In this document: positions 8,787 to 61,981 of the stretch, piece by piece
How the letters are laid out: the number at the start of each line of letters is the position of its first letter
How positions within the stretch are numbered: the first letter of the stretch is position 1
Assembly: GCA_013368445.1 (NCBI GenBank)
Contig: JAACJO010000003.1
Location: forward strand, 124,001 to 188,000
Origin: Leucocoprinus leucothites
Lineage: Eukaryota > Basidiomycota > Agaricomycetes > Agaricales > Agaricaceae
Length of the DNA: 64,000 nucleotides
Direction: 5' to 3'
Position numbers and translations under genes: made by a program
Notes under the pieces: model-generated
The model's database searches: none
What the model saw: only the letters and a program-made list of their open reading frames with translations
What the model was told of the DNA's origin: nothing

Positions 8787-9840
8787 AATGTCTTTTTTCC
8801 CACACACAAATAATACTGTGATTAAAGATTGTGTGTTTGTTGAAAGCCACCTTGAACAACATGAGAGAGGTATGCACCTCATTTTCTGCCTGAATTGCTG
8901 TGGAGTAATTGTAAATCTTTCCAAGTATAGAGCTGCTGTATAGCGCCTCACGACCGGAGGCTGCTCACGATTCAGCCGTCTACGAACTCATTCCGGAGTC
9001 CTTGCCTAGAATTCGACATGCCCCCATCCTCGACGACCTGTCAACATGCGCGCAACACCTGAGTCCCTCCTTTCGTCATTATGGATTCTTGGGCCCCAAT
9101 CCAACCTGGCACACCTTTGTGCAGACAAACTGGGAAACTACTCGGCTGCAAGTTTTTTTTTTTCTCAAGGGAACTAGGAGTCAGGGATCCCACGCAATTT
9201 TTCTCTATCATTGCCTACCAACTTGCCACTCACTACCCCGCTTACAAGATGTTCATTGATGCAAAACTCTGCCAGAGTCCTGGGTTAATCTCGAAAGCTC
9301 TCAAAATCCAGTTCCACGAACTTATCGTTTGGCCATTCCAACAACTTCAAGCTCGCGGAGAGTTTACTGTCGGATCACAACAGATAATTATTGTCAATGA
9401 TTTAGACGAGTGCAAGGGCGACCGAGCTCGACAGGAACTTCTTCGTATCCTGACCACAGAAACGGAGCCACTACCGTTTAGGTGGGTAGTTTTCACTCGC
9501 CTGGATATTGCTGTGGATGAGCGGTGACTCAAGCCAAAGCCTACAATTTTTCCCGAATTTGGATGGATGGCGTCTGATGGGTAAGAGTTCTGGGAGCGGC
9601 TGTGCGGGGCGAGGGGGTACGAGAGTGTGCATGCTACGCCTTGAGGGTGATGGGATCTGGATAATTTTGCTTGGATCTATGCATAAGCTTGCCCATTGTG
9701 CAGTACTCTTTTGTTGTTTCCACCCCCAGGCGCTGGGATACGATGGTGTAAGGAGTACATCTATGATGATGGGCTCCCGGTAATTCTGTTCGGGGCTGTG
9801 CATAAGTTCGCCCATTGGGCAGTGCTTCTTTTTTTTCTAT
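8787..9840 (+). pseudogene. NACHT-like copy A, broken
   Basis: This is the only clearly broken member of the seven-copy family. A first exon starting MSFFPHTNN and a GTATGC intron precede exon 2 (IELLYSASRPEAAHDS, then LPRIRHAPILDDLS). A one-base loss near 9075, where intact copies read F-S-S-L-W, shifts the frame. The rest is read in another frame (9081-9527): ASFFFS is changed to CKFFFFSRELG, then IIIVNDLDECKGD and FRWVVFTRLD, ending at a TGA where the intact copies have an Arg codon. The Walker A site is already missing (LGPNPTWH region). Beyond the stop the conserved 3' tail (GDGIWI.LLG) continues, and a second degraded copy of that tail lies at about 9768-9838. Confidence 0.75.
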
Positions 9841-10725
9841 AGCCCTGCCACACTGCTCGTAGTTCCGGGATATTCAGGCGCAGTGTGTAGAGGGGAAAGA
9901 AGCTGATGACTTTAATAAGCTCTGATGTGACGGGTCAAACGAGCTTGAGCCGCAAACCGGGGTGAATTATACCCAGTACCTATTGCCTCCATGTGTACCT
10001 TCAGATTTCTAGCCCTCCTCACACTCTTTTCGTACAGTTTTTGAACAGTATGTTATTAGCAGTTTTTTTTTTTTGAAATATATAGCTTTAATATGGTGGT
10101 GACAGATGTGCGGCACACCAAGAGGTGGTTGTGCCCGAAAGGTGGGGTAACCATAGCAATGACGAAAGTCGGTTGGTTTACCACTCCCCCTACATACATC
10201 CTCCAGGACGTTATGCAGGGCCCTACCAAGCAGTAGGGATTTTTGCAAACGGCGAGCATTGATGAGCACGCACCGTGAACCTGTGGGAACATCACATTGG
10301 AGAGTCATACGGTCACATTGAAGAATCGTCACGCGCCGGCTCTCCCTGAGTAAATACATCCCCGTGAGCACCTTGTCTGCTTTTGTCAAGGCTTTCTTCA
10401 CAGGAGCTACTACCAGGTGTGAAGCTTTGAAGGTCGACATATCCTTGTGAAGCGGTCCCCTTCATGGCTTCATGGCCTAGTGTCAACCACCTTCAAGCGA
10501 TAACCCACCATGTTGTAGGCGAGTGTCAGGCTGCGGTAAGTGTTGGCCCTTATTGTACTGGAGCTCAGGCGCTAGCGCTGCACCTGATGGTTAAGAACCG
10601 GCCGCGCCTGTGCTAAAATTCAATCCTTATGCCACTAGACTCATCGACCTGAGGTGTTTTGACCTCTTCACCTTACCTTTCTTATGTGATGGGTGAATTT
10701 TTGGTCCACCACCACAACCACCACG
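9841..10725. other. Mostly unassigned; one minus-strand frame of unknown nature
   Basis: A minus-strand frame of 143 codons with an ATG runs from 10,440 to 10,009 (MSTFKASHLVVAPVKKALTK...). It ends in a Lys run encoded by a T-tract and matches nothing I recognise. CpG content here is normal, unlike 1-7.8 kb. On the minus strand near 10,640-10,560 there are words reminiscent of a tRNA-derived SINE (TAGTGGCATAAGG, then GGTTCTTAACC), but the B box is poor. I call neither a gene. Confidence 0.25.
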
Positions 10726-10829
10726 ATCAAGTCCGAACCCAACATGAGGATGAGCCTACTGCTGGTGGGAAGGCCATACCAACTATTCGACGCGATAACA
10801 ATTGGTAAACGTGTGAAGGGGGCCGAAGT

Positions 10830-11740: not shown

Positions 11741-11799
11741 ATCATCCACGTTTCCCCAAGGCTCGTTATGAGCTGGGTCGTTGACGAATGGTACTCCCC

Positions 11800-14390: not shown

Positions 14391-14419
14391 TCGACACCAC
14401 TGAGGAACGCCCGTTGGCA

Positions 14420-17804: not shown

Positions 17805-18729
17805 ATGTCCTTCCTCCATCGGCCAAAGAATTTTGTGATTACAAACTCTGTGTTCGTTGAACATACCCAACATGGACGAGGTATGCCACTATTTTGCACC
17901 GAATTACTATGCAAACATTTATAAAGTATTTCAAGGTATAGAGCTTCTTTACAGTGCCTCTCGGATGGAGGCTACCCATGACTCAGCCGCCAACGAATTC
18001 GCAGCAGAGTCTTTGCCCAGAACTCGACATGGCCCTATTATCGAGGACCTATCCTTGTGGGCTCAACACTTGAGTCCCCCCTTCTCGTCATTATGGATTG
18101 TTGGCCCCGAATCCAACCTGGCACATCTTTCTGCTGACAAATTGGGGGATTACTTGGCAGCAAGTTTCTTCTTTTCGCTGAAACTAGGAGTTGAGGACCC
18201 GGCACGATTTTTCACCACCATTGCCTACCAACTAGCCATTCACTTCCCTGCTTACGAAGCGCTTATCAATACCACACTCCACCGCTGTCCTGGATTAATC
18301 TCAAAATCTCTCAAAATCCAGTTCCGCGAGCTCGTCGTTCGACCATTTCAACAACTTCGAGCTCGCGGAGAGACCATCGTCGGGTCACGACAAATAATCA
18401 TTATCAGTGGTTTAGACGAGTGCAAGGGCGACCAAGCTCGACAGGAGCTTGTCCGTATTCTGACTACAGAAACGGCATCACTACCGTTTAGGTGGGTGGT
18501 TTTCACTCGCCCGGATACAGCTGTAGATGGACAGCAACTCGAGCCGAAGCCTACAGCCCTTCCGAATTTGTATGCATGGCGTCTCATGGATAAAAGCTGT
18601 GAGGACGACCGTGCGAGGCGAAGTGGTACGAGGGTGTGCATGTTACGCCTTGAGGGTGATGGGATCTGGATAATTTTGTGTGGATCTGTGCATAAACTCG
18701 CCCATTGGGTAGTGCTATTTTTTTTTTAA
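17805..18729 (+). CDS. NACHT-like pseudo-NTPase, copy B
   Basis: Two exons, 17805-17880 and 17936-18729, join to 289 residues. Exon 1 encodes MSFLHRPKNFVITNSVFVEH, matching the short beta-rich leader often seen at the start of basidiomycete STAND proteins. Exon 2 opens GIELLYSASRMEATHDSAA and continues into the NTPase fold: LWIVGPESNLAHLSADKLG, ASFFFS, FFTTIAYQLA, FRELVVRPFQQL, IIIISGLDECKGD and FRWVVFTRPD. In this family the first motif should be GPxGxGKS; here the G-x-G-K is missing in frame, leaving GPES. The first Walker B Asp (usually DGLDE) is Ser. Sensor-1-like FTRPD is kept. The protein stops at a T-tract after GDGIWIILCGSVHKLAHW, with no ANK or WD40 repeats. The open frame suggests a maintained protein. 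ATP hydrolysis is unlikely; a regulatory or decoy role is inference. Confidence 0.7.
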
Positions 18730-30020: not shown

Positions 30021-30362
30021 CTAATTACAGGGATCCCTAACAGTCGCAGGCGTGTCTTGAACGATGTCCCTTGCGATGCATTCCTCTTCTGTAACCAACA
30101 GGCGCCTACCCGCTACCCACCGACCTTATTAAACTTCGGAATATGCTGCTGCCCAACCGTATTCGAATCCTCACCCGCATTCAACCCCTTCAACGTTCCA
30201 CACCCCAGATTAAATACAAACAACGTCAACACGCCAAACTGATTATCATTCAACTGCACACTTGAGCTGACGAATTGGTTGACGAAGTTGGTGAATGTCC
30301 TTGCATTGTTTCGGAAAAGCTGCGCGGCGGTGTCTTTGGGGAGGGAGAAGGAAGGGGGAACA
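30021..30362 (-). pseudogene. GH24 lysozyme fragment fused to GNAT upstream sequence (module 1)
   Basis: The minus strand retains SLPKDTAAQLFRNNARTFTN, FVNQFVSSSVQLNDNQFGVL, LGCGTLKGLNAGEDSNTVG and IPKFNKVGG, the middle and end of the GH24 domain. The catalytic Glu/Asp/Thr segment, the linker and the signal peptide are absent. At about 30,365-30,375 the homology jumps directly into the sequence that lies upstream of GNAT genes elsewhere (CCAAGCAA.CGGGG..C), so a deletion has joined the two. LLKR has also been lost before LNAGED. Not functional. Confidence 0.8.
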
Positions 30363-30419
30363 TCTGTGGCATCCAAGCAACCGGGGCCCCTGAACCCGCA
30401 GATTCTTGTCAACGGCAAT

Positions 30420-31166
30420 GAAGTAAGTCCCGGTCATCAACTCATCGAGAGCCCTCTTGTCGAGCGAGTGCCAACGACTTGAAAGCTCTAGGGTCCCAAA
30501 GTGATCTTACTCTACCGAGCTTCACGCTTCGGAAAAGTAGACAACATGTGTTCTATGACCTTGTACGATCAGAGGAGGTGGCAACTGCCAGGGAAATCGA
30601 AAAGCAGGGTAGCCCAGTCAAAGTGTTTTCGGGGATTGTCAACCTTTGATTGATATCAGATTTCTTGGGGGCATTCCACCCGACGAAGCTGACGCTCTCG
30701 AGGCTAACAGGTAAGGCATCGTCTCGTACTCCTATCGAACACTATAAATACTGAACGAACACCAGCTTTGACCTACAAGTAGCGCCGGAACTTTTAGAAG
30801 TGTTCGTCCTGTCGGTTGGCGCAGATGCTCGGCGCCTTCTTGCATACACATTTGTCACGCTCTCCCCAATTCCACGATAAATTCAAGCATCTCTGACGAC
30901 AGATGTACCAAATGTCATTTACGGAGGGTTCGCACACACTTTTGTGTAGATGGGGAATTCGGCGCAGCTTCGATTGGATTGAAGCTGTTTGCTAAGTTTA
31001 TTGAGACGTGTCAGAGAGAAAGGAAGTATGAGCCGATGGTTTTTGTGGTGAAGGAGAACTTCGTACTGTGTAAGAGAAGATGGGAATTGAGATTGTGGGA
31101 AGGGTAGGAGTTATATTTGGGAAAGATGTGTGGTATGAAATGTGTATACCCTTTTCGAGAGCGTGA
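30420..31166 (+). pseudogene. AANAT-like GNAT acetyltransferase, broken (module 1)
   Basis: Homologous to the intact gene at 59,984-60,743. VFYDLVRSEEVATAREIEKQ can be read, then after the intron IPPDEADALEANR and, after the next intron, VAPELLEVFV with further shifts. A TAA (CGATAAATT, near 30,880) sits where the intact gene has an Arg-Tyr pair, and the C-terminal part EFGAASIGLKLFAKFIE (about 30,955-31,005) is in another frame from its surroundings. Ends with the stop at 31,164-31,166. Confidence 0.8.
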
Positions 31167-34250: not shown

Positions 34251-34259
34251 TTTTGTTAT

Positions 34260-36580: not shown

Positions 36581-36622
<42 letters not shown>

Positions 36623-36976: not shown

Positions 36977-37939
36977 ATGTCCTTTTTCCCTCACGCAAAT
37001 AATGTTGTAATTACGAACCCTGTGTTCGTTGAACACTCCCAACATGGAAGAGGTATGCCACTCTTTAATACTTGTGAATTGCTGTAGATTAAATGTAAAA
37101 TATTGCAAGGTGTAGAGCTCCTCCACAATGCGTCTCGGATGGAAGCTGCTCACGATTCATCCGCCAATGAATTCGCTGCAGAGTCTTTACCAAAGACTCG
37201 ACATGGCCCCATCATCGAGGATCTATCCACATGGGCCCAACACCCGAATCCTTCCTTCTCATCGTTGTGGATTCTTGGGCCTGAATCCAACTTGGGACAT
37301 CTTTATGCAGACAGGATTGAGGATCGTCTAGCTGCAAATTTCTTCTTTTCCCGACAACTAGGCATTGACAACCCCACCCAATTTTTTGTCACCATTGCCT
37401 ACCAACTTACCACTCATTTCCCCGCTTACAAGGCATTCATCGATGCCGAACTTCACCAAAGCCCTGACTTAATTTCCAAATCTCTCAAAGTCCAGTTTCG
37501 CAAACTCATCGTTCGGCCATTCCAACAACTTCGAGCTCGCGGAGAGATCACTCTCGGATCACGACAAATAATTATTGTTAGTGGTTTAGACGAGTGCAAG
37601 GGCCACCCAGCTCGAAAGGAGCTCCTTCGAATTCTTACCACAGAAACGGTACCACTACCGTTTAGGTGGGTGGTTTTCACTCGCCCAGATACTGCTGTGG
37701 ATGGACAACGACTCGAGGCCAAATCCACAGCGCTTCCGAATTTGGATGCATGGTTTCTAGCCGATAAAGGTATTGGGGGCGGCTGTGAGAGGCGAGGAGA
37801 TACGAGGGTGTCCGTGATACGCCTCGGAGGTGATGGGATCTGGATAGTTTTGTTCGGATCTATGCATAAGCTTGCCCATTGGACAGTGCTTTTTTTTTTT
37901 AAAAAACCTGACAGGCTGTCGTCATTTGTCATTAATTGA
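36977..37939 (+). CDS. NACHT-like pseudo-NTPase, copy D (module 2)
   Basis: Exons 36977-37052 and 37110-37939 join to 301 residues. Exon 1: MSFFPHANNVVITNPVFVEH; exon 2: GVELLHNASRMEAAHDSSAN, LWILGPESNLGHLYADRIED, ANFFFSRQLGIDNPTQF, TIAYQLTTHFPAYKAF, FRKLIVRPFQQL, IIIVSGLDECKGH, FRWVVFTRPD. Walker A G-x-G-K is missing; the first Walker B Asp is Ser. It ends KLAHWTVLFFFKKPDRLSS after the T-tract. It lies 214 bp downstream of the broken GNAT copy on the same strand, a spacing near that of copies F and G. The intact frame beside two broken neighbours argues for selection or recent gene conversion. Confidence 0.7.
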
Positions 37940-38808: not shown

Positions 38809-39800
38809 AATGACAGGGATGGGCAACAGTCGCACACGCCGTCTGGAACAATGCCACCTCTGCCGCTCTCCTCTTTTGTAATTCCGCAAGTACTTCGAAA
38901 TCTCCTGCTGCGCAACCGTATCCGGATCCTCACCCGCATTCAATCTCTTCAGCAGCGTCGAACTCTTCAACGTCCCACACCCAAGGTTAAACGCAAACGC
39001 AGTCAACGCGCCAAAATGATTCTCATTCAACTGCACTCTTGGGCTGACGAATTGGTTGAGGCAGTTAGTGAATGTCGTTGCGTCGGTTTGGAGAAGCTGG
39101 GCGGTGGTGTCTTGGGAGAGGGGGAAGGAAAAGGGGACTTCTGCGCAGTTGGCTCTCTGGCAATTTGTGACAGAACCCGACTGTGGGGAATCCGGTGGGA
39201 TCTGGCTCTGGGCTGGCGACGAAACCTTCGAATTGTTTGATCAGGTTGACGGTGGCAGAGCTGATAGTGGGAGGGCATGCACCTGCTGCGGGTGTGGAGC
39301 TGGAGCCCGTTGAATGGGCTTCGCTGTCGTCTATAGCGGAAGCATCAGCACTACTCCCTGAGGCGGTCGCGGTTGCGTCGTCTACTGTCGTGAAATTGGT
39401 GGTGGCTGGGTCATCGACAGTCGCTGAATCGATGGCCGTGGAATCGTCCGCTGCAATGTTATCGCTAGTCGTGGTGGCACCATCCCCCGTTGTATCGACG
39501 TCTTCCTCAGCGTTGTCCGTCCCGTCTGCTATGTTGGTATCGTAGGGGGTATCTGCGGTTGGGTCAACTGTCTCTACAATCATGAGGTCGAAGCTTTTGG
39601 AGTCATTGATGGTAGTTGGACCGTCCAAGCGTGTATCTCTCGTGTTGTCAAACCCAGTATCATCAGCTGTGACAGTGGAATTGTCAAACTTAGTATTCCC
39701 CGAATCATCGAATCCAGCATCGCCTTTGCTGAAATCATCGAACCCAGGATCCGCAGAATCATCTCCGCGACTGAAATCGTCTTTATCACTAAACCCTGCC
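38809..39800 (-). pseudogene. GH24 lysozyme, frameshifted (module 3)
   Basis: Linker (TADTPYDTNIADGTDNAEED and similar) and the start of the domain (LIKQFEGFVASPEPDPTGFP) are in one frame; TVGFCHK follows, with the Gly before the conserved His changed to Cys, and a frameshift just after it. The rest (QLNENHFGALTAFAFNLGCG, LLKRLNAGEDPDTVAQQEI) is in another frame and shifts again. Upstream, FDDSGD-type repeats of the linker are in further frames. Clearly inactive. Confidence 0.8.
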
Positions 39801-41638: not shown

Positions 41639-42648
41639 ATGTCATTTTTCTCGCACGCAAACAACACTGTAATGAAAAATCCCGTGTTTGTTGAAAACCA
41701 CCTTGAGCGACATGGGAGAGGTAGGCCACTCGTTTTCTGCCTGAATCGCTGTGGAGTAATTGTAAAATCCTTCAAGGCATAAAGCTCCTTTACAATGCCT
41801 CGCTGCCAGAGGCTGCTCATGATTCAGCTGCCTATGAGTTCGTTCCGGAATCTTTGCCTAAAACTCGACATGGCCACATCCTTGAGGACCTGTCCACGTG
41901 GGCGCAACACCCGAGTCCCCCCATCTCGTCGTTATGGATTCTTGGGCCCAAATCCAACCTGGCACACCTTTGTGCAGACAAATTGGGGGATTACTTGGCC
42001 GCAAGTTTCTTCTTCTCAAGGGAGCTGGGAGTCGACGACCCCACCCGATTTTTCCCTACCATTGCCTACCAACTCGCTACTCACTTCCCCACCTATGAGA
42101 CACTCATTGATGCCAAACTCCGCCGAAGCCCTGGGCCAATTTCGAAATCTCTCAAAATCCAGTTTCGCGAACTCATCGTTCAGCCATTCCAACAACTTGG
42201 GGCTCGCGAAGAGACCATTGGATCACGGCGATTAATAATGGTCAATGGTTTAGACGATTGCAAGGGCGACCAAGCTCGAAAGGAGCTTCTCCGTATCCTG
42301 ACCACAGAAACGGAAGCACTACCGTTTAGGTGGGTGGTCTTTACTCGCCCAGATATTTCTGTGGAAGGGCGGGGACTCGAGCTGAAATCCACAGCGCTTC
42401 CGAATTTGGATGCATGGCGCCCAAGTTCATGGGAGGGCTGTGCGAGGCGAGGAGATACGGCGGTGTGCGTGGTATGCCTTGAGGGTGATGGGATCTGGAT
42501 CATTTTGTTTGGATCTATGCATAAGCTTGCCCATTGGACAGCGCTTTTTTTTTTTTTTTTCACTCCCGGATTGAGTTCCAGAATTAGCGATCGGTCTCAT
42601 CGATCACCCCCTAAGGTAGGGAACACCCGGATTTATCACCTTATATAA
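41639..42648 (+). CDS. NACHT-like pseudo-NTPase, copy E (module 3)
   Basis: Exons 41639-41720 and 41777-42648 join to 317 residues. Exon 1: MSFFSHANNTVMKNPVFVEN; exon 2: GIKLLYNASLPEAAHDSAAY, LWILGPKSNLAHLCADKLG, ASFFFSRELGVDDPTRF, TIAYQLATHFPTYETL, FRELIVQPFQQL, LIMVNGLDDCKGD, FRWVVFTRPD. Walker A is missing; the Walker B tetrad is further weakened (DE to DD). A few residues are deleted after LPNLDAWRP. The T-tract at the end is the longest of the family (about 20 T), giving HWTALFFFFFTPG before the stop. With copy A it forms a subgroup by shared flank and by the exon-1 length (27 codons). Confidence 0.7.
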
Positions 42649-44146: not shown

Positions 44147-45504
44147 CTAATTACAAGGATGGGCGACAGTCGCAGACGCCGTCTGGAATAATGCCACCTC
44201 CGCTGCTCTCCTCTTCTGCAACCCAGCAAGCACCTTCCCACCTGCCTTATTAAACTTCGGAATCTCCTGCTGTGCAACTGGATTCGGATCCTCACCCGTA
44301 TTGAACCAACCTCTTCAACAACGTCAGGCTCTTCAACGTCCCACACCCAAGGTCAAACGCAAACAAAGTCAACACGCCAAACTGATTATCGTTCAATTGC
44401 ACACCAGGGCTGACGAATTGGTTGACACAGTTGGTGAATGTCGTCGCGTCGGTTTGAAGTAGCTGGGCAGCGGTATCTTGGGAGAGGGGGAAGGAAAAGG
44501 GGACTTCTGCGCAGTTGGCTTTTTGGCATTTGTGACCGAAGCCGACTGTGAGGAGGCCGATGGGATCCGGCTTTGGACTGGCGACGAACCCTTCAAATTG
44601 TTTGATCAGGTGAACGGTGGTGAAGTTGATGGCGGGAGGACATGCGCCTGCTGCAGGTGCAGAGTTGGAGCCCGTTGAGCTGGCTGCGCTGCTGCCTGTA
44701 GCAGAAGCACCACCAGCACTTGACGAGGCGGTCGCAGTAGCATCATCAGCTGTCACAGAATCTGTAGCAGTTGCGTCGTCGGTGGTCGCGAAATCTGCAG
44801 CGGTTGGGTCATCGGCTGTCGCAGAATCGGTGGCCGTAGGATGGTCTGCAGCGGCTGGATCCGTAGCAGTGGGGTTGTCAGCCGTGGTGGAATCATCCCC
44901 CGTTGTATTGACGCTGTCGTCAGTCTTGTCCGACCCGTCTGCTACATCGGTACCGTCAGTGGTATCGGTGGTTGGGTCAGCCATGTCTACAGCAGTAGGG
45001 TCGAAGTTTTCAGAGTCATCGACGGTAGCTGGGTTGTCCAGGCTGGTAACTCCTGAATCATCGAACCCGGTATCATCAGCTGCGGCACCGGAATCATCAA
45101 ATCCACTATCTCCCGAGTCGTTGAATCCCGAATCGCCTCCATTGAAATCGTCGAGCCCAGTATCCCCAGAATCATCTCCACTACTGCAATCGTCCCTACC
45201 AGTAAAGTCGCCGCTATCAAAGTCGTCACCACCAACATCGCTACTACTACCGAAATCTCCACCGCCAAAGCTATCATCGCCGAAATCATCTTGCCGTTCT
45301 TACATCGTCACCTCACAACGACGACTACATCCACCTATATGCATACACCCGGGATCAGAGTCCGAAATGAGAATCATCATGACTTGAGCGACTTACCGCC
45401 GCGCAAGAACGGCTCGTTACAGAAGCATTGGGTACAGGAGTGGTATGCACGGATACGAGCGAGAGTGAGAGTAGGAGGAAGGAGAGGAGTGAGCTTGGGT
45501 TTAT
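44147..45504 (-). pseudogene. GH24 lysozyme, lost start, stop and frameshift (module 4)
   Basis: Aligned with the intact gene (58,260-56,870), the signal-peptide exon is present (SLLSFLLLSLSLVSV) but its start is ATA instead of ATG; the intron acceptor CAG is gone; a TAA stands before the ERQDDFG start of the mature part (the intact copy reads YKRQDDFG); and about four extra bases after LLKRL near 44,310 shift the end to VQYG and a stop. Catalytic Glu, Asp and Thr are kept (FEGFVASPKPDPIGLLTVGF). Multiple independent hits make it a pseudogene. Confidence 0.85.
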
Positions 45505-46618: not shown

Positions 46619-47385
46619 AATGACCATGGAAAAGGTCCTCCCATCATCGACTCATCGAGAGAGCTCTTGTTGACCGAGTGCCAACGACTTGAAGGTTTCA
46701 GTGCCCCACAGTGATCCTATTCTGCCAAGTTTTAGGCTTCAAAAAACACAGACAACCTATGTTCTACGACCCTGTACGACCAGAAGAGGTAGAAACCGCC
46801 TGGGAAATCGAAAAAAGGGTAGGCCCATCGGACTGGTATGTGGGCTTGTGAACCTTTGATTTATATCAGATTCCTTGAAGGCTTTCCACCTGACGAAGCC
46901 GACAGTCTTGAGGTCCTCAGGTCAGGCCTCACCTCGTGCATCTGTCTAATGATATAGGTGCTGTATGAACACCAGATTTCACCAGCAAGTAGCTCCAGAA
47001 CTCCTTTTGGAGCATTCATCCCACCAGCTATATAGAACGACTGGAACACAGCTGGCGTCTAATCGGATGCACATTCGCCACACTCCCTCCAGTTCCACAA
47101 TACACTCCAGCGTCCCTGACGACACATGTACCAAACACGAGTACGGCGTGTTCTCACACGCTTCGTGTTTATCAGGAATTTCGCGGAGTGTCGATTGGAT
47201 TGATGTTGTTTTCTCAGTTTATTGAGATGTGTCAGAGGGAGGGAATGTATAATAAAATGGGATCTATGGCGAAGGAGAACCTTGTAACTGTGTATGAGAA
47301 GATGGGAATCAAGACTGTGCGAAGGGTGGAGGTTGCACTCGGGAAATATGTGTGGTACGAGATATGTATACCTTTGAGAACATAA
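46619..47385 (+). pseudogene. AANAT-like GNAT acetyltransferase, damaged (module 4)
   Basis: Homologous to 59,984-60,743. MFYDPVRPEEVETAWEIEK is followed by a damaged donor; FPPDEADSLEVLR is intact, but the next donor is TCAGGC instead of GTGAGG and cannot splice normally. After the acceptor, FHQQVAPELLLEHSSHQ loses frame, and the C-terminal YQEFRGVSIGLMLFSQFIEM, then VYEKMGIKTVRRVEVALGK and WYEICIP, is open to the stop at 47,385. The acetyl-CoA segment is recognisable but the gene is unlikely to be functional. Confidence 0.75.
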
Positions 47386-47580: not shown

Positions 47581-48492
47581 ATGTCCATTCTCCATTACCC
47601 GAACAATTTTGTGATTACAAACTCTGTGTTCGTTGAAAATCACCAACATGGTCGAGGTATGCCACTATTTCCCCCCGAAATACTATGGAATAATTAAAAC
47701 ATATCTGAAGGCATAGAGCTCCTTCACAATGCCTCTCGGATGGAGGCTACTCACGATTCATCCTATAATGAATTCGTTGCAGAGTCTTTGCCTAGAACTC
47801 GACATGGTTCCATCCTCGAGAACCTATCTACATGGGCTCAACACCCGGATCCCCCCTTCTCGTCGTTATGGCTTGTTGGGCCTGAATCAGACTTGGCACA
47901 TCTTTGTGCCGACAAAATGGAGAAGTACTTGGCTGCAAGTTTCTTCTTTTCGGGGGAGCTAGGGGTGGATGATCCCAGACAGTTTTTCACCACCATTGCC
48001 TACCAACTCACGACTCACATCCCTGCATACGAGGCACTTATCGATGCCAAACTACGCCAGAGCCCTGGGCTAATCTCTAAATCACTCAAAATCCAGTTCC
48101 ACGAACTCATCGTTCGGCCATTCCAGCAACTCCAAGCTCGAGGAGAGATCACTGCCGGGTCACGAGGAACAATCATTGTCAATGGTTTAGACGAGTGCAA
48201 GGGCGACCGAGCTCGACAGGAGCTTCTCCGGATCCTGACCACAGAAACGGAAGCACTACCGTTTAGGTGGGTGGTTTTCACTCGCCCGGATGTTGTTGTG
48301 GATCAGCGGCGGCTCGAGCTCAAGTCCACAGCTCTTTCGAATTTGGATGCATGGCGCCTAATGGATAAAAGTAGTGCGAGGCAGGGAGATAGTACGGTGT
48401 GCGTGATACACCTTGGCAGTGATGGGATCTGGATCATTTTGTTCGGATCTATGCATAAGCTTGCCCATTGGACAGCACTTTTTTTTTTTTAA
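47581..48492 (+). CDS. NACHT-like pseudo-NTPase, copy F (module 4)
   Basis: Exons 47581-47656 and 47711-48492 join to 285 residues. Exon 1: MSILHYPNNFVITNSVFVEN; exon 2: GIELLHNASRMEATHDSSYN, LWLVGPESDLAHLCADKME, ASFFFSGELGVDDPRQF, TIAYQLTTHIPAYEAL, FHELIVRPFQQL, TIIVNGLDECKGD, FRWVVFTRPD. Walker A G-x-G-K is missing and Walker B begins with Asn. The protein ends after HWTALFFF at the T-tract. It begins 195 bp after the end of the damaged GNAT copy, same strand. It is the shortest intact member. Confidence 0.7.
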
Positions 48493-50369: not shown

Positions 50370-50617
50370 CGATCGCCAGCTCGATATCGCACTAGCTGAC
50401 TAGCTCGCTGTGCTTGATGTCTGAGAAGGACTAGATCGACCTGTTATGGGAAGGCCGCTTTCCAAGCGCCACCGCTGTACCTTGTGAAGGGCCCAGCATC
50501 CCTTCTCATTTCTGTGTCTTACCCTAGCCCTTAGGCGATTTGGGTTCGAAACCTTGCTCGATTAGCGCATCACTGCTGCTTCTAACGAACAACGTTGACT
50601 GACGACTTCTTTTTAGA

Positions 50618-53600
50618 ATGTCTTCTATCAACAACGGAGCTTCTCGCATTCCCGTCCTTCAAGGCCCCCAGAACTACCAGTTTTGGTCCATGAGGATGCA
50701 GGGATATCTTTCCATGATCACGACCCCTGGAACCCCTCTTACGGGTTGGACTGTCACAACCGGCTTAACACCCGCACTTCCTCCTGTTATTGCTCCGGCA
50801 ATAGACGATGAAGGAAACGTCACGAATGCTGCTGAAACCTCTGCTTCCATAGCGCTTCGTACAGAGGAAGAACGCCGAAGGAACTTCCTTGAGCAATCTG
50901 CGATTGGCCTGCTTATCCAAGCGGTCCCAGATTCCATGCTCCACTTGATAGTCCAAGGAGATCCCAATGCCACTTGGGATGGTCTCCAACGCCTTTACGG
51001 CGTCCAAGGTCCTGCATCCGTATATGGCGACTTCGTCCGCGCCGTCTCCTGGACTCTCCCCGGAAACATGGATCCAGCTCAGTCCATCGCTGAGCTTGAA
51101 TCTTTATTCACTCGGATCGAAGGTGCGACCGCGCGACTTCCCGAGGTGATCCGTGCCATGATTCTGCTACGCGCTGTCCCGCAAGGGATGGAAACCTTAG
51201 CGCAGTCAATCCTTGCGAACCAAACGCAAATGTCCCAACTCACGTGGGATCTGGTCCGTAGCGCCATCCAGGCTGCTTGGTCCCAGAAGATGACTGCTTC
51301 CGCTTCTCGCGCCGGCCGCTCCAACGGTCAATGGCAGCAGAACCGGAACCCCGGCAATCAACAACGCCAGGGGCAAGGACAACAACAAGGGCCGTTTCGA
51401 TCACAGCCCCAGCAGCAGCCACAGCAGCAGCAGCCTCCTAATCAAGGCGCTGGCCAGAAGCCTGGTAACCCCCAGACTGGCAATCCCGGCGGAGATGGCA
51501 AGAAAGGAAAACGCGGTAAGAGAGGAGGCAAAAAGGGTAAGGGCGCTGCTAATGAAGCTGCGACCGATGCCGACGCCACCAACACCTCCGGAGTCACCAA
51601 CGTCGCTCCTCAATATGGCGCTTCCAGTGCCATTGGTTTCGCTGCCCCCGCTATCGCTAACCGTCCTCTCCTCGCGAACCGGATCGCCTCGCTGGCAGAA
51701 CCGGCTAACGCAAGCCCTTCATCATCCACACGCCACCTTGTTGCAGAAGCGCGAAAGAATACACCGCGGCTTCAGGAGCGAATCTCCGAATCTCCTCAGT
51801 CCGAGGGATATCGTTGCAGAAGCTCGAAAGCTACCAAGGATAAGGTGTTGAGAATTTGGGATGAAAGGCTCGCCGACCTCGCGGTCAAAGCCGAAATGAC
51901 GGGCTCCATAATTGAGGAAATCCCTTACTATGGAGGAGATATGGACGAATGCCCACCGTCGCCGAGGATGACACCTCCAGCTGATCCGATGCTCGAATCC
52001 GACTCCGAGGGGGAGGATTCTGACGGGTGGACTTCTGGGTTGTGGACAACGCAAGTCTTTTCTTCTATCTCTGATTGGATTAACACTGATACGGTGATGC
52101 CACAGCACGACCGAGAAGGGGCCTGTCGCCTCACTCGAGCCCGCTCCCATGTGAGCGCTCCTGGCCACGCTGAACATTTTCGCGGACTAGTTACGTCGTC
52201 TCCGGCTCCTGTATATACTTCTTTTGTATCGCGCACTATTTCGGTCGCCCCTGTGGGGCTGTTATTAAACTGTGATTTGACCTCTGTACCGCGCTGTGTG
52301 AATCTATCTAAGTGTGAGAAAGCTCTATGTTGCCACTGTAAGGGAAAGAAAGCGCCTTCACGGGCTGCTTCTTGGATTCTTGATTCGGGTGCTTCCGCAC
52401 ATTTCACACCCTATTTGGACGATTTTTCTACAATCGAAATGGGAAAATTTGGTGAAATTCAGACAGCTAACAAGAACGCTCCCCTATTCATTTCGGGTCG
52501 AGGCACTGTCTTGATCGAACACGAGATCCATGATAACGGAAAAACGATCACTGCGACGACTTCATTGTCTCCTGTGTTCTATGTAAAGGGTATGCACGAT
52601 CGCCTCATGTCTGCCGGTCAACTCCTGGAATCCAGGTTGCGCAGCGAGGCCGATAAACATGGTACTATCTTTCGGGATGAGTCAGGCAATGCCGTTTTGT
52701 CAGCGGCTCCTCGTTCTGAGTCGCAGCCTACGCTACAAACAGTAAGATGTCGAATTGTACATTCGAATGCTTCGAGCCACGTCGCTCAGCATCCTGACTA
52801 TAATATCTGGCATCAACGTTTAGGACATCCGTCTAATCGCGTGTTGAGCAAAACTACCGATTCCACGCTGAATGGACCTCAGGTTTCAATTCCCAATTAT
52901 TCGCGCCCTTGTCCAGGCTGCATGAAAGGGAAGATGCACCAGAAACCCTTTAACGATAACCCAATTCGGGCTAAAGAAGCCTTTGAGCACGTTCACAGTG
53001 ATCTCTTTGAGCTCCCCATCGTATCTTATCACAAGTACAAATGGGTCATGACCTTATTGGACGATTACTCCTCATTTGCCCACGTGGTGCTTCTGCGATC
53101 AAAAGCTGAAGCAGCTCCCCGCATGGTTGAGCTTCTAACTTACGTTCAGAACCAATTTGGCAAATCGATTCGTCGATTTACATCCGATCGAGGAGGAGAA
53201 TTCGTAGCAGGTACCCTGCAAGATTATCTTAGGGCGAAAGGGATTGAGTTCACACCGAGTGCGCCCCGCGTTCATCAACAGAACGGGCGAGCAGAAAGAT
53301 TGAATCGAACACTGCATGAGAAGGCGCAAGCCATGCGACTTCACGCGTGTCTTCCAGATTCATGGTGGGATTTCACAATTAACACCGCAACCCATATCTA
53401 CAATCGCACATCGATGAACCGCATCCAATGGAAAACTCCGTTTGAGTTAGTACATGGACATAAACCTGACATCAGTCACCTACAAGTATTCGGTTGTGCC
53501 GCATATGTGTTCCTTCCGGACGAAATGCGCCTGAATAAATTATCTGCGAAATCTGAACTGATGATCTTCGTTGGATATGATCGGGAGAAGAATTACATCT

Positions 53601-54409
53601 TTCTCCGCCATACTCGAGGGAACGCTGAGTTTATCTCGCCGACTGTCATCTTTGATGAAAAGATGTTCCCAAAATGTCCAGACCAAAAACCCGCGGTTTA
53701 CCCCGAGCCGCCTCGCGCTGAGATTCCTCCAATCTCGACTATTCCGAATGTTCCAAATATAGACCATCCGCCTGCACCTCGAGGAGGAGAGCCGCCTCGT
53801 GCGCCTTCACCTCGTGCTCCTCCACGCCCTAAAACACCTTCACCTCCTAGATCGCCAAGTCCACCTCTTTCTTACGCTGATCCGGAAGATCGCGATCCAA
53901 AAGAAGAGGAAGAAGAAGTTGAGTTACCTCCTTCTCCGGGACCTTCGCGAAAGGAACCTGGTCCACGAAAACGTGCTCGGTCTCCATCTCCACCCGAGGT
54001 ACTGCCACCACGACCTTCGGTCCAGGATGATCTTGATGCACTAGAACAGCTCGACCGCTGGGTCACCGAACATGAAAACCGCCGTCCTAGGCGAAATGTT
54101 CAACCTCCGAACAGACCAGGAAATGTGTATGGTGATAGGAGCGACCCTCTTGATGTCATCCGACAATATAGGGAACTCAATCCTAACTTACCGCGCAATC
54201 GTGCTCAATATCGACCTATTCCTGGAGCAATTTCCGATGAGGAAGCTCGGAACAGATTACGAAATTGGAATATCCCTCACCCGGATAGTAGTATCGACAC
54301 TAAACCGTCATCTACCGATTTTGCGAAGTTCGTGAAGGAAGGGGGGGTAAAATTAGTCGATTTCCTTCTCGCACAACGCACCAACAGGCCAGTTCCCGAA
54401 CAGTTTTGA
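50618..54409 (+). CDS. Copia gag-protease-integrase polyprotein (first part)
   Basis: 1263 codons from ATG 50618. Residues 1-230 are a copia-type gag (NYQFWSMRMQGYLS near the start), followed by a Gln/Gly/Lys-rich basic stretch (about 235-310). A Cys-rich word CEKALCCHCKGKK stands just before the protease motif ILDSGASAHFT (about 590). The integrase zinc-binding HHCC segment starts WHQRLGHPSNRV and ends CPGCMKGK; the DDE core is visible as HSDLFE, LLDDYSSFAH, FTSDRGGEF and HQQNGRAERLNRTLHEKA. A Pro-rich, basic region follows (about 1050-1150). The frame ends at TGA 54,407-54,409 (EQF then stop), probably a former CGA Arg codon, and a frameshift of one base lies about 35 bases further on, before the RT part. 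Confidence 0.9.
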   Translation: MSSINNGASRIPVLQGPQNYQFWSMRMQGYLSMITTPGTPLTGWTVTTGLTPALPPVIAPAIDDEGNVTNAAETSASIALRTEEERRRNFLEQSAIGLLIQAVPDSMLHLIVQGDPNATWDGLQRLYGVQGPASVYGDFVRAVSWTLPGNMDPAQSIAELESLFTRIEGATARLPEVIRAMILLRAVPQGMETLAQSILANQTQMSQLTWDLVRSAIQAAWSQKMTASASRAGRSNGQWQQNRNPGNQQRQGQGQQQGPFRSQPQQQPQQQQPPNQGAGQKPGNPQTGNPGGDGKKGKRGKRGGKKGKGAANEAATDADATNTSGVTNVAPQYGASSAIGFAAPAIANRPLLANRIASLAEPANASPSSSTRHLVAEARKNTPRLQERISESPQSEGYRCRSSKATKDKVLRIWDERLADLAVKAEMTGSIIEEIPYYGGDMDECPPSPRMTPPADPMLESDSEGEDSDGWTSGLWTTQVFSSISDWINTDTVMPQHDREGACRLTRARSHVSAPGHAEHFRGLVTSSPAPVYTSFVSRTISVAPVGLLLNCDLTSVPRCVNLSKCEKALCCHCKGKKAPSRAASWILDSGASAHFTPYLDDFSTIEMGKFGEIQTANKNAPLFISGRGTVLIEHEIHDNGKTITATTSLSPVFYVKGMHDRLMSAGQLLESRLRSEADKHGTIFRDESGNAVLSAAPRSESQPTLQTVRCRIVHSNASSHVAQHPDYNIWHQRLGHPSNRVLSKTTDSTLNGPQVSIPNYSRPCPGCMKGKMHQKPFNDNPIRAKEAFEHVHSDLFELPIVSYHKYKWVMTLLDDYSSFAHVVLLRSKAEAAPRMVELLTYVQNQFGKSIRRFTSDRGGEFVAGTLQDYLRAKGIEFTPSAPRVHQQNGRAERLNRTLHEKAQAMRLHACLPDSWWDFTINTATHIYNRTSMNRIQWKTPFELVHGHKPDISHLQVFGCAAYVFLPDEMRLNKLSAKSELMIFVGYDREKNYIFLRHTRGNAEFISPTVIFDEKMFPKCPDQKPAVYPEPPRAEIPPISTIPNVPNIDHPPAPRGGEPPRAPSPRAPPRPKTPSPPRSPSPPLSYADPEDRDPKEEEEEVELPPSPGPSRKEPGPRKRARSPSPPEVLPPRPSVQDDLDALEQLDRWVTEHENRRPRRNVQPPNRPGNVYGDRSDPLDVIRQYRELNPNLPRNRAQYRPIPGAISDEEARNRLRNWNIPHPDSSIDTKPSSTDFAKFVKEGGVKLVDFLLAQRTNRPVPEQF

Positions 54410-54444
54410 GATATCACCAACTTAGACGCTGATACTCAAACCAA

Positions 54445-55932
54445 ATGGCAAAAGCGATGCTTGAGGAATTAGACGCGCTTCACAAGCGTGGTGTATACGA
54501 GCTCGTTGATCTCCCAAAAGGAAGAAGAGCTATTAAAAATAGATGGGTTTATAACATCAAGTCCGATAATCGCTATCGCTCTCGCCTTGTTGTGAAAGGG
54601 TTCTCCCAGATCGAGGGAATCGACTTCGATGAACTCTTTTCTCCAGTTGTCCGATATGAGACCGTGCGCCTACTTCTTGGCATTGCAGCGCTTGAGGACT
54701 TTGACCTTCACTCTGTTGACGTCAAAACAGCCTATTTATATGGCGATCTGGATGAAGAGATCTATATGGAGCAGCCAGAAGGATTCCGACTTCCTGGCTA
54801 TGAGAAGAAAGTCTGGAGATTACGCAAAGCGATCTACGGTCTAAAACAAGCCGGCTTATCCTGGTGGAAAGCACTCACTTCATCGATGCTGAAACTTGGA
54901 TTCAAGCACTGTAAGTCCGACGCTGGCGTTTATCATTTTACACATCCCAAGACCGGCGAGCGTGTCTTTGCGGTCGTTTATGTGGATGATGTCTTTTTTA
55001 TGGGTAAAAAGAATTCCCTGCTCCTCTCAGAGTTGAAGCAAAAATTCATGACTACTTGGGAATGTCGTGACCAAGGTGAACTTTCTGAGTTCCTAGGCAT
55101 GAACATATCACGCGATCGAAAAGAGAGAAAACTCTATATAGATCAAGTGAAATACCTCGATAAGGTTCTTGAGAAGTTTGATATCCCCAAAGGCGCGAAA
55201 TTTACACCGCTGCCATCAGGATTTGTCTTCGAACCCTATGTCAATAAGGTAGATCCTAAGTTTAGAACCCGCTACCAACAGTTAGTCGGATCGCTGATGT
55301 ATCTTATGATCGGATCGAGACCTGACATATCCTTCGCGGTTGTCAAACTCTCCCAGCAATCTGCTGCCCCTTCCAATGCGCACTTCCGGGCTGGACTCCA
55401 TGTGCTGCAATATTTGCGATCAACGCACAATTATCGACTCGTCTTTGATGGAGCTTCTAACCAGGCCGTCATCGCTTGTTCCGATAGTGATTGGGCGCAA
55501 GACGGACAGTCTCGACGATCTGTCACGGGTAATTATGTTACAATAGCGCGTGGACCTGTAAGCTGGCTTAGCCGCAAGCAGAAAACTGTCGCTTTGTCAT
55601 CTACTGAAGCTGAGTATATGGCGCTATCTGATTGCAGCTGTCAGCTGATGTGGATTCGACAACTTCTCGAAGAGATAGGTTTTAAAATTCCTGCTCCGAT
55701 TCTCTATGGTGACAATATCGGATCTATCTTCTGGAGCGAGAACCCTGTTCAAGAAAAACGCTCGAAGCATATTGATATACGATACCACTATATCTGAGAT
55801 ATCATTGAAGAAGGTTCCGTTGAGTTGGAATTTATCGAGGGCTCAAACAATCCTGCCGATATTCTGACAAAAAACCTCGGTTCAATTCTCTTCAATAAAT
55901 TTGTTTATTCTCTGGGTATCGAATTTCTTTAG
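54445..55932 (+). CDS. Copia reverse transcriptase-RNase H (second part)
   Basis: A frame continuing the polyprotein after the stop and frameshift. It carries the RT start GVYELVDLPKGRRAIKNRWV, VVKGFSQIEGIDFDELFSPV, DVKTAYLYGDLDEEIYMEQP, the catalytic YVDD (VVYVDDVFFMG) and QLVGSLMYL, then RNase H (CSDSDWAQDGQSRRSVTG, VALSSTEAEYMAL). A TGA at 55,795-55,797 (HYI then stop) interrupts it where relatives have Arg; reading past it gives IEEGSVELEFIEGSNNPADI, LTKNL, to a final stop at 55,930-55,932. ATG 54,445 is simply the first Met of this frame, not necessarily a real start. Confidence 0.85.
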
Positions 55933-56869: not shown

Positions 56870-58260
56870 CTAATTACAGGGATGGGCAACAGTCGCAGAC
56901 GCCGTCTGGAACAACGCCACCTCCGCCGCTCTCCTCTTCTGTAACCCAGCAAGCACCTTCCCACCTGCCTTATTAAACTTCGGAATCTCCTGCTGTGCAA
57001 CCGTATTCGGATCCTCACCCGCATTCAACCTCTTCAACAACGTCGAACTCTTCAACGTCCCACACCCAAGGTTAAACGCAAACGAAGTCAACGCGCCAAA
57101 CTGGTTATCATTCAACTGCACGCTCGGGCTGACAAACTGGTTGACGCAGTTTGTGAACGTCGTCGCGTCGTTTTGGAGAAGTTGTGCGGCGGTGTCTTGA
57201 GAGAGGGGGAAGGAAAAGGGGACTTCAGCGCAGTTGGCTTTTTGGCATTTGTGACCGAAGCCAACTGTGGGGAGGCCGATGGGGTCTGGCTCTGGACTGG
57301 CGACGAACCCTTCGAATTGTTTGATCAGGTTAACAGTGGCAGAGTTGATAGCAGGAGGGCATGCGCCTGCCGCAGGTGCAGAGTTGGAACTCGTTGAGCT
57401 GGCTGCACTGCTGCCCGTAGCAGAAGCACCAGCAGCACTCGCCGAGGCGGTCGCAGTTGCATCATCTACTGTCGCGGAATCTGTAGCGGTTGGGTCATCG
57501 GCAGCCGCGGAATCTGTAGCGACTGGGTCATTGGCAGTCGCGGAATCGGTGGCCGCAGGATCATCTGCAGTGGCTGAGTCCGTAGCGGTAGGGTCGTCAG
57601 CCGTGGTGGTACTATCGCCCGTATCATCAATCACATCTCCTGTGGTATCATCCGTGCCATCCAAAGTATCGTCAGTGGCATCCGTTCCGCCTGTTATGTC
57701 GGTACCATCGGTGGTATCGGCAGTTGGGTCAACTGTGTCTCCAGTCGTGGGGTCGAAATTTTCAGAGCCATCAATGGCGGTTGGATCGTCCAAGCTAGCA
57801 TCTCCCGAGTTGTCAAATCCGGTATCATCAGCTGTGACACCAGAATCATCAAACCCAGTATCTCCCGAGCCGTCGAACCCCGAATCACCCCCACTAAAAT
57901 CGTCGAACCCAGCATCACCAGCACCGTCTCCGCTACTGAAATCATCACCACCGCTAAAGTCACCGCTATCAAAGTCATCACCACTAGCGAAATCGCTACC
58001 ACCACCGAAATCACCTCCACCAAAGCTATCATCGCCAAAATCATCTTGCCGTTTATACATCGTCACGTCATGACGACGACTACATCCACCTATACGCATA
58101 TATACTGAATCAGAACCCAAAATGAACATCATCATTGTATGAGGGACTTACCTGCCACGCAAGACCGGCTCGTTACAGAAGCATTAGGCACGGGAGCGGT
58201 ATATACAGGCGAGAGGGAGAGGGAGAGCAAGAGGAAGGAGAGAAGTGATGTCGGGTTCAT
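56870..58260 (-). CDS. Secreted GH24 (T4-type) lysozyme, intact (module 5)
   Basis: Two minus-strand exons, 58260-58152 and 58104-56870, split by a 47-bp intron, join to 447 residues. Exon 1 encodes a signal peptide (MNPTSLLSFLLLSLSLSPVY) with probable cleavage near TAPVP and an N-glycosylation site NAS. A dibasic YKRQDDFG, a likely Kex2-type site, opens a Gly/Asp/Phe-rich repeat region (GGDFGG, SGDDFDSGDF) and then a long Asp/Thr/Ala linker with units such as DDPTATDSATA. The GH24 domain fills about 290-445: LIKQFEGFVASPEPDPIGLP, TVGFGHKC. Glu301, Asp310 and Thr316 have exactly the +9 and +15 spacing of T4 lysozyme Glu11, Asp20 and Thr26. It should hydrolyse peptidoglycan outside the cell, in competition with bacteria or in bacterial digestion. 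Bacterial origin of fungal GH24 genes is general knowledge. It is the only intact one of six copies. Confidence 0.9.
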
Positions 58261-59983: not shown

Positions 59984-60743
59984 ATGAAACGGGCCTTCCC
60001 GTCATCGAGTCATCGAGAGAGTTCTTGTCGAACGAGTGTCAACAACTTGAAAGCTCCAGTCGCCCAAAGTGATCTTACTTTGCCGAGCTTTACGCTTCAG
60101 AAAAGCAGACAACCCGTATTCTATGACCTTGTACGACTAGAAGAGGTAGAAACTGCCTGGGAAATTGAAAAGCAGGGTAGGCCGGTCAAAATGGTGTCTG
60201 GACTTGTCAACCTTTGATTGATATCAGGTTCCTTGAAGGCTTTCCACCCGACGAAGCCGACACTCTCGAGACTCTCAGGTGAGGCTTCGTCTCATATCCT
60301 ATCAGAGAATCCATTAAGCAAAGGCCAGATTCCACCAGCGAGTGGCTCCAGAGCTCTTTATGGGAGCATTCATCCCATCAGTAGGCACAGAACAACTGGG
60401 GCACCGTCGGCGTCTGATCGCATACACATTCGCCACGCTTTCCCCAATTCCACGATATACTCAAGCGTCCCTGACGACGCATGTACCAAACACGACTACG
60501 GTGTGTTCTCACACGCTTTGTGTCGATAAGGAATTCCGCGGAGCGTCGATCGGATTGAAGTTGTTTGCTGAGTTTATTGAGATGTGTCGAAGAGAGGGAA
60601 AGTATGAGCGGATGGTGTTTATGGCAAAGGAGAATCTTATACCTGTGTATGAGAAGATGGGAATTGAGACTGTGGGGAGGGCAGAAGTTGTACTTGGGAA
60701 AGATGTGTGGTATGAGATGTGTATATATTTTTCGAGAGTGTAA
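59984..60743 (+). CDS. AANAT-like GNAT N-acetyltransferase, intact (module 5)
   Basis: Exons 59984-60176, 60239-60278 and 60329-60743 join in phase to 215 residues. After a 45-residue basic, Ser-rich leader of doubtful reality comes QPVFYDLVRLEEVETAWEIE, then GFPPDEADTLETLRFHQRVA across two introns, PELFMGAF, the core strand RRLIAYTFATLS, and the acetyl-CoA-binding part HTLCVDKEFRGASIGLKLFA (motif A, Q/R-x-x-G/A replaced by FRGASIG), AKENLIPVYEKMGIETVGRA and WYEMCIYF. The E-G-F/Y-P-P-D-E-A-D-T-L-E-T-L-R-F segment is typical of fungal and animal serotonin N-acetyltransferase-like (AANAT) enzymes, which acetylate arylalkylamines or polyamines. The substrate is not known. It lies divergent to the lysozyme and 191 bp before NACHT copy G. 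The three other array copies are broken. Confidence 0.75.
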
Positions 60744-60934
60744 TTGAATGCTGATAGCAGCGACCCTGATATGGGTGCATCATGGTCCGTCTCGGATTTA
60801 TGAGCATTTACACTGCCTCCCACACCAGCGGTTGAAGTGGTGGTTGCTGTCAGGCTCTTGGAGGCACTCTCCACTCACCATTTTGACCGTAGCTCACTCC
60901 GTCACTCCCCCGTGCTCGGGGCACCCTTTCAACA

Positions 60935-61981
60935 ATGGCTTTTTTCCCTCAGGCAAATAATTTCGTGATTACAAACTCTGTGTTCAATGAATATCCTCAA
61001 CGTGGACGAGGTATGCCCCTCTTTTTTCTGCCTGAACTGCTGTGGAGTAACCGGAAAGTATCTCAAGGCATAGAGCTCCTTTACAATGCCTCTCTGTTGG
61101 AAGCTGCCCACGATTCGGCCGACAACGAATTTGTAGCAGAGTCTTTACCAAAGACTCGACATGGTTCCATCATCGAGAGGCTATCCACATGGGCTCAACA
61201 TTCGAGTCCCTCCTTCTCGTCATTATGGATTGTTGGGCCTGAATCAAACTTGGCATACATATGTGCAGATAGATTGGGGGATTACTTAGTGGCAAGCTTC
61301 TTCTTTTCGAGGGAGCTAGGAGTCGAGAATCCTAGACAAATTTTCACCACCATTTCCTACCAACTCGCCACTTACTTCCCCGCTTACGAGGCACTCATTG
61401 ATACCAAACTCCACCGAAGCCCTGGATTAATCTCGAAATCTCTCAAAATCCAGTTTCGCGAACTTATCGCTCGGCCATTCCAACAACTTAGAGCTTGCGG
61501 AGAGATCACTGTCGGGTCACGGCAAATAATCATTGTCAATGGCCTAGACGAATGCAAGGGCGACCGACATCGACAGGAGCTCTTTCGCATCCTGACCACA
61601 GAAACGGAACCACTACCGTTTAAGTGGGTGGTTTTCACTCGTCCCGATATTACTGTGGATGGGCGGCGACTCGAGCCAAAGTCCACAGCGCTTCCGAATT
61701 TGGATGCACGGCGTTTAATGGATAACAAGTTTTGGGACAGCTATGCGAGGCGAGGAGATACGAGGATATGTATGGTTCGCCTTGGGGGCGATGGGATCTG
61801 GACCATTTTGTTCGGATCTGTGCATAAGCTCGCCCATTGGACGGTGCTTTTTTTTTTAACCCTTGACGGCTTGTGGCGTCTGGTAACCATGATGGAGTGT
61901 CACCTGAGACACAAGATTGAGTTCATTGTTTTGTGCTTGCACATTACTTCGGACCACTGGCAAAACCACGTAAATGTATAG
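60935..61981 (+). CDS. NACHT-like pseudo-NTPase, copy G (module 5)
   Basis: Exons 60935-61010 and 61068-61981 join to 329 residues, the longest member. Exon 1: MAFFPQANNFVITNSVFNEY; exon 2: GIELLYNASLLEAAHDSADN, LWIVGPESNLAYICADRLG, ASFFFSRELGVENPRQI, TISYQLATYFPAYEAL, FRELIARPFQQL, IIIVNGLDECKGD, FKWVVFTRPD. The Walker A G-x-G-K is missing and the first Walker B Asp is Asn, as in all copies. The frame continues 45 residues past the T-tract (LTLDGLWRLVTMMECHLRHK). It is the only copy whose GNAT and lysozyme neighbours are also intact, so this module is the best candidate for the ancestral or functional cassette. Confidence 0.7.
   Translation: MAFFPQANNFVITNSVFNEYPQRGRGMPLFFLPELLWSNRKVSQGIELLYNASLLEAAHDSADNEFVAESLPKTRHGSIIERLSTWAQHSSPSFSSLWIVGPESNLAYICADRLGDYLVASFFFSRELGVENPRQIFTTISYQLATYFPAYEALIDTKLHRSPGLISKSLKIQFRELIARPFQQLRACGEITVGSRQIIIVNGLDECKGDRHRQELFRILTTETEPLPFKWVVFTRPDITVDGRRLEPKSTALPNLDARRLMDNKFWDSYARRGDTRICMVRLGGDGIWTILFGSVHKLAHWTVLFFLTLDGLWRLVTMMECHLRHKIEFIVLCLHITSDHWQNHVNV

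Follow-up and report, generated by a model that had tools for sequence, protein, structure and literature searches.

How can a family of NOD-like receptor (NLR) genes lose the P-loop and still keep its reading frame? The question is raised by a 64,000-nucleotide stretch (C3:124001-188000, hereafter the window) of the 47-Mb genome of Leucocoprinus leucothites (Agaricaceae). In the usual view, NLRs are activated through a nucleotide switch located at the P-loop. By a six-frame scan and a search of the own genome, we found in the window seven copies of a two-exon, approximately 290-residue gene of NPHP3_N/NACHT type, and each of them carries a shortened remnant in place of that loop. On balance, we favour the reading that these genes belong to a monophyletic family of selected pseudo-NTPase NLR stubs of Agaricaceae, probably working as decoys or modulators of full-length NLRs.

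A tandem array of P-loop-less genes

The seven copies of the window are listed below, in window coordinates.

8788-9726, + strand: copy A, degraded by stops and frame changes; exon 1 8788-8869; GPQSNLA at 9091-9111
17805-18729, + strand: copy B, intact, 289 aa; exons 17805-17880 and 17936-18729; GPESNLA at 18103-18123; Walker B IISGLDEC
31570-32595, + strand: copy C, intact, 323 aa; exons 31570-31645 and 31700-32595; GPESNLA at 31867-31887; Walker B IINGLDEC
36977-37939, + strand: copy between C and D, intact, 301 aa; exons 36977-37052 and 37110-37939; GPESNLG at 37277-37297 (placed by hand from the gene model); Walker B IVSGLDEC
41639-42648, + strand: copy D, intact, 317 aa; exons 41639-41720 and 41777-42648; GPKSNLA at 41944-41964, with Lys present
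47581-48492, + strand: copy E, intact, 285 aa; exons 47581-47656 and 47711-48492; GPESDLA at 47878-47898
60935-61981, + strand: copy F, intact, 329 aa; exons 60935-61010 and 61068-61981; GPESNLA at 61235-61255

The first-pass annotation had described a seven-copy family. That number holds for the window, but the full array found by the own-genome search, spanning C3:37.7-186 kb, numbers 15 copies; every one is on the + strand, and eight lie upstream of the window. Relatives extend to other contigs, a further species and a further genus. The remaining 14 array copies are 47-74% identical to copy C. Gene models are intact for 11 of the 15 copies and for six of the seven in the window, in agreement with the two-exon frame of constant intron position and phase first seen in six copies. 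All 11 begin with an ATG, are interrupted by one phase-1 GT..AG intron (53-57 nt) and stay open to a common ..HWxxxFF-type end. The copy at 36977-37939 matches NCBI D9756_004453 (P0003) by eye. The public gene model of copy E (P0009, D9756_004457) loses by splicing the C-terminus encoded in the intact copies; P0012 and P0013 likewise deviate there. The array begins about 38 kb from the contig end; no TTAGGG is found in the contig's first 3000 bases, and a subtelomeric site is not supported.

The P-loop deletion

A direct six-frame scan found GP(E/K/Q)S(N/D)LA at six places of the window, and the seventh copy reads GPESNLG, so that a remnant of the expected type is present in every copy. None of the 15 array copies has a P-loop, and L020 has a stop inside the remnant. 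In a 74-row alignment, four residues of the Walker A motif GxxxxGK[ST] are gapped in 31/31 family rows and in 0/43 canonical rows, the latter being hand-picked from the hits and chosen for having a P-loop. The change can be written as GPAGxGKSA to GP[K/R/E]S[N/D]. The aligner sets the gap on AGxG, an alignment choice that is backed by the Lys or Arg of other subclades. The residue before the Ser is K in 12, E in 11, R in 7 and I in 1 of the 31 rows, with Glu in most of the array; the Ser itself is Ser in 30 rows and Thr in one. The next position is Asn or Asp in 30/31 family rows, as against Ala in 33/43 canonical rows. The proposed in-frame loss of about four residues is thus borne out, while the proposal that it removed the catalytic lysine is probably wrong. 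Judging from the rows, the Lys was probably kept when the deletion happened and later turned to Glu in the array lineage.

The rest of the nucleotide site has also changed. As first noticed in the intact copies, the first Walker B Asp is replaced in the array-type sequences (the 11 array copies and P0006), by Asn in 10 and by Ser in 2 of the 12. Among 27 family rows, two of them gapped at the site, hhhhD..DE is complete only in L024. The clade-2 rows that are readable there have lost the Walker B Glu and the sensor Arg. As aligned, the Walker B and sensor residues have apparently decayed by different routes in the array and in clade 2.

A hidden exon with the P-loop was rejected, since exon 2 runs without a break from strand 1 through the remnant to helix 1, as do the intron-free open reading frames (ORFs) P0006 and P0048. 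The + strand of the window contains a single GxxxxGK[ST], GWRLMGKS at 9565-9588, which belongs to the broken copy A and follows its remnant by approximately 470 bases. We regard it as a chance Walker-like string off the P-loop place. As a moved P-loop it was rejected: it occurs in this one broken copy only, the corresponding residues being AWRLMDKS in copies B, C and E and different again in the rest.

One clade among canonical NLRs

The same P-loop loss is found outside the array at L024, L026 and L027 (contig C17), L025 (C16) and L032 and L040 (C2). At least 21 P-loop-less loci exist in the genome, a lower bound that leaves uninspected the own-genome hits not fetched, and 16 of them have an open core frame (11 in the array, L024-L027 and L032). 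Protein searches, in one of which P0116-P0121 were not read, yielded relatives in Leucocoprinus birnbaumii (P0014, P0046, P0051, P0052 and P0109), in Macrolepiota fuliginosa (P0110 and P0111) and on Joint Genome Institute (JGI) or 'lgn' contigs (P0006, P0015, P0050, P0053, P0054, P0055 and P0112; P0055 begins after the P-loop place). The six own-genome loci outside the array, the proteins of both named species and those from metagenomes have the same deletion as the array (31/31 rows in all). Among the 108 proteins of two protein searches, the deletion was not found outside the family; six other proteins of that set miss the P-loop pattern and either start inside or after it or differ at its first residue. 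P0046 (L. birnbaumii NP233_g6651) consists of two P-loop-less units head-to-tail, each with its own N-terminal motif, and may be a real fusion or a merged gene model.

In a tree with the P-loop columns masked, the 31 family rows form one clade (100/99) with one state change. It sits inside a larger clade of 48 rows (100/99) that also includes canonical NPHP3_N proteins of agarics, among them L035, L028, L030 and P0016. Earlier trees of 27 and 40 rows gave the same single-clade outcome. P0046 was split into its two units and L040 was entered as an interrupted frame; P0001-P0005, P0007-P0010, P0012 and P0013 were represented by locus models. The broken copies L020-L023, P0011 and P0047 (gene models of L020 and L021), P0048 and P0049 (the same genes as L032 and L027) and the fragment P0055 were left out. 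The tree topology points to a single, old P-loop loss, found in two named genera; several independent losses are unsupported, with one change on the tree. With the PF24883 (NPHP3_N) profile, six of seven P-loop-less proteins pass the 24.8-bit cut-off and L027 scores 23.1. The PF05729 (NACHT) profile matches none of the seven at E <= 0.1, and the one canonical protein given, L028, matches.

Purifying selection on the array

The array is under purifying selection. Pairwise comparison of the 11 intact copies (55 pairs) gives a synonymous divergence (dS) of 0.27-0.67 (mean 0.49), a mean nonsynonymous divergence (dN) of 0.15 and a mean dN/dS (omega) of 0.32 (0.21-0.51). In a maximum-likelihood codon model, computed by a custom script on the topology of an iqtree codon tree in which several nodes have low support, omega is 0.44 for the array, and omega = 1 is rejected (twice the log-likelihood difference, 2dlnL, 132.8). 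The NACHT part has an omega of 0.37 and the N-terminal motif one of 0.43. A clade-2 pair also gives 0.32. In a neutral substitution simulation that does not count indels, 23/5500 frames remain open at a distance of 0.245, the lineage mean, and 300/5500 at 0.10.

The range of dS is such that recent duplication does not account for the open frames, and very recent duplication or gene conversion, with a smallest pairwise dS of 0.27, is rejected as the whole story. The dN/dS is likewise not near 1, the value that, together with a lack of expression, would mark unselected copies. The earlier suggestion of selection on a pseudo-NTPase is well supported by the omega values of 0.32-0.44, the single old deletion and the keeping of the N-terminal motif and core, to which come two intron-free contig ORFs that suggest expression.

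Domain architecture and predicted structure

Predicted models contain a five-strand core of STAND/AAA+ type. PDB chains are named here by their titles, as 'Orc5' and 'MalT'. A solved-structure search with A2 gave no more than a marginal match, to FAP42. The winged helix (HETHS) and sensor repeats are absent, and the frames end approximately 20-65 residues after strand 5 (array and clade-2 numbering). One exception to the early stop is the annotated model P0049 (D9756_009452), in which a P-loop-less stub runs on into a PF14622 region; the genomic frame L027 does not continue into it and stops after 268 aa, and the model perhaps includes a merged neighbour.

A motif of the type F-x-x-[ASL]-x-[NDYHK]-x-x-[IVLF]-x4-[FL], encoded by exon 1, is present in 19/23 family N-termini, a count that is biased by the pattern having been written from the family itself, in 6/28 hand-picked canonical N-termini, some perhaps incomplete, and in 0.13% of shuffles. 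P0016, P0056 and P0063 are examples of canonical proteins having it. An amyloid signalling motif would be shared with the C-terminus of an effector, but no effector with a motif matching this one was found in the genome searches made.

Hints of expression

P0048 is a 298-aa ORF on a 1155-nt 'lgn' contig and is identical at 297/298 positions to the spliced model of L032, the gene of which has a 51-nt intron. P0006, on 'lgn' contigs of up to 1162 nt, is array-type (69-76% identical to the 11 intact copies) and lacks the intron at the same junction. The simplest reading is that these contigs are transcripts.

Neighbouring genes

Genes of two other types are repeated along the array.

56870-58147, - strand: PF00959 phage-lysozyme-type gene with a long Asp/Thr/Ser-rich N-terminal stretch; 425-aa open frame, used as query
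30029-30364, 33254-34231, 35531-35650, 38810-39793 and 44150-45392: lysozyme-type relatives along the array
46993-47385 and 60318-60743, + strand: GNAT acetyltransferase exons, repeated with the array
30767-31160, 36329-36753 and 62400-62498: other GNAT acetyltransferase exons

Each type was judged against one open query, without intron models. On this basis, of about six lysozyme places only the query itself has the whole 425-aa frame open, though the part encoding the lysozyme domain is still open at 33254-33796. For GNAT, 2/5 exon places are open, one being the query. The description of these neighbours as mostly broken was broadly right. Two adjoining long open frames at 50603-55797 (+ strand), with gag_pre-integrase, integrase, SH3 and RVT_2 domains, represent a copia-type retrotransposon within the array. 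A 322-aa open frame at 1920-2888 (- strand) has a sub-threshold Ty3 capsid-like match.

A possible role as decoys or modulators

In the history that we propose, an NPHP3_N/NACHT (STAND) ancestor lost the four P-loop residues (AGxG) once. Its descendants have a short motif at the N-terminus, then a helical linker and the STAND core, and finally a short C-terminal part, hydrophobic in many members; they are without winged helix and sensor repeats. Such a core should no longer hold the nucleotide phosphate, and the stubs probably do not bind ATP, as far as their site residues tell. The family diversified, spread over several contigs and, while purifying selection acted, was amplified in tandem in L. 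leucothites. The computations show the four-residue loss, its single origin on the tree, the selection, the intact gene models and the predicted fold. Lacking loop, winged helix and sensor, a stub probably does not act as an ordinary NLR. Selection is strongest on the core and the N-terminal motif, through which NLRs are thought to contact one another and their effectors. A stub may pair, via core and/or motif, either with full-length NLRs whose N-terminus is alike or with the motif's own partner. Such pairing would probably raise the activation threshold of the full-length NLRs, and the stub would be a nucleotide-independent decoy or modulator. This role is the most likely one in our ranking, followed by that of a scaffold.

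Several points weigh against this reading. Four of the 15 array copies (L020-L023) are broken, and the frame of L040 is interrupted. The linker (omega 0.83) is not different from 1 in the codon model, and the tail (omega 0.61, 2dlnL 4.3) is weakly constrained. Foldseek E-values are weak (best 6.1e-3 and 4.4e-4). The C-terminus is the most hydrophobic stretch in 21/24 sequences of one set and in 0/4 of P0109-P0112; this peak is no family-wide trait and has no canonical control. The genome has one HeLo-domain match, which we rejected as a partner for the stub, the exon read showing by eye no matching motif. Expression is suggested by 'lgn' contigs that are undocumented as RNA, and purifying selection by itself does not reveal function.

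The alternative that survives best, and a possible though distinctly less probable one, is that the stub is a scaffold or adaptor, a nucleotide-independent structural subunit that promotes assembly rather than dampening it. Sir3 offers a parallel as an ATPase-dead member of the AAA+ proteins, being a chromatin factor and not a STAND protein. However, fold similarity reveals no function, no conserved partner gene was identified, and at least 21 loci fit a receptor or decoy family better than an obligate subunit.

It is improbable that the shortened loop (GPKS) still binds nucleotide via Walker B and the Ser/Lys. The Lys (12) and Arg (7) among the 31 rows, the Ser or Thr in 31/31 and the first Walker B Asp kept in 2/5 clade-1 rows outside the array and in 7/10 clade-2 rows would allow it, but four of the eight P-loop positions are gone in all 31 rows. 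Moreover, the array mostly has Glu for the Lys and Asn/Ser for the Walker B Asp, and the readable clade-2 rows are without the Glu and sensor Arg. Slightly less probable still is a membrane-active stub, in which the hydrophobic C-terminus does the work and the NACHT core is a carrier. The 21/24 sequences mentioned above and a clade-2 model ending in a helix (271-294, block pLDDT 60-82) speak for it, but the tail evolves under weaker constraint than the core (omega 0.61 vs 0.37), the array tail is predicted as strands with low confidence, and in 4/4 of P0109-P0112 the most hydrophobic stretch lies elsewhere. A dying gene family, its frames open merely through recent duplication or gene conversion, is very improbable: 4/15 array copies and the paralog L040 are broken and a retrotransposon and broken neighbours lie within the array, but the minimum pairwise dS is 0.27 with omega well under 1, members occur in another genus, and the neutral simulation leaves 23/5500 frames open at the mean distance.

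More generally, a clade of receptor-derived proteins that lost its P-loop once, long ago, and was then kept and multiplied indicates a selected use for the receptor core that does not depend on the switch. The loci of L. leucothites, at least 21, and the relatives in two other named species are a natural set for nucleotide-independent NLR functions (decoy, damper or scaffold). They also bear on short NLRs, which may be mistaken for pseudogenes. More speculatively, and with considerable doubt on our part, they might represent a lineage of nucleotide-free 'modulator NLRs' that keeps the N-terminal motif and the receptor core and serves mushrooms as a built-in, tandem-amplified set of dampers (or primers) in NLR signalling of the motif-based, prion-like kind.

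Comparison with known systems

In the searches made of the open-licence PubMed Central (PMC) literature, we found no paper on a P-loop-deleted fungal NACHT clade or a nucleotide-free 'modulator NLR' class. Noncanonical P-loops are already known: the relevant part of PMC4986451 describes fungal NLR candidates departing from GxxxxGK[ST] by single-residue changes at four conserved positions, whereas here four residues are deleted across a clade of short proteins. The present genes probably form an NLR-derived pseudo-NTPase family with a whole-clade P-loop deletion. PMC12881547, in the portion concerned with the P-loop, calls it ATP-binding and conserved in NLRs, and lists mutational analyses for P-loop dependence of fungal PLP-1 and NWD2. 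Truncated NLRs are described in Sordariales in PMC12258605, where the sections on them make no mention of P-loop loss.

The closest known relatives are the canonical agaricomycete NLRs of NPHP3_N/NACHT type (PF24883, PF05729), whose homology with the family spans the core between the HDS motif and the sensor strand; some of them also have a similar N-terminal motif. They have a GPAGxGKS-type loop and a Walker B of the form D..DE, whereas the family ends soon after strand 5; canonical hits in the own genome are mostly open frames of approximately 420-700 aa, compared with the short stubs. PMC9815663 reports, in the pertinent section, that agaricomycete NLRs (NLR05/08/22 group), usually dozens per strain, carry amyloid-like motifs right at the start of their short N-termini. 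The family motif resembles them in place and shortness; the comparison is with their description there, and identity is a lead only.

Truncated plant NLRs acting in immunity, TIR-NBS2 and TNx (PMC4305288 and PMC9786959, in the parts describing them), are NLR-derived and shortened like the stubs, but are of plant type. NRCX of Nicotiana, as portrayed in the excerpted text of PMC9851556, is a modulator NLR that no longer causes cell death and tunes its network. It is a precedent for the proposed modulator role, but it has an intact P-loop, is of NB-ARC type and belongs to a plant lineage.

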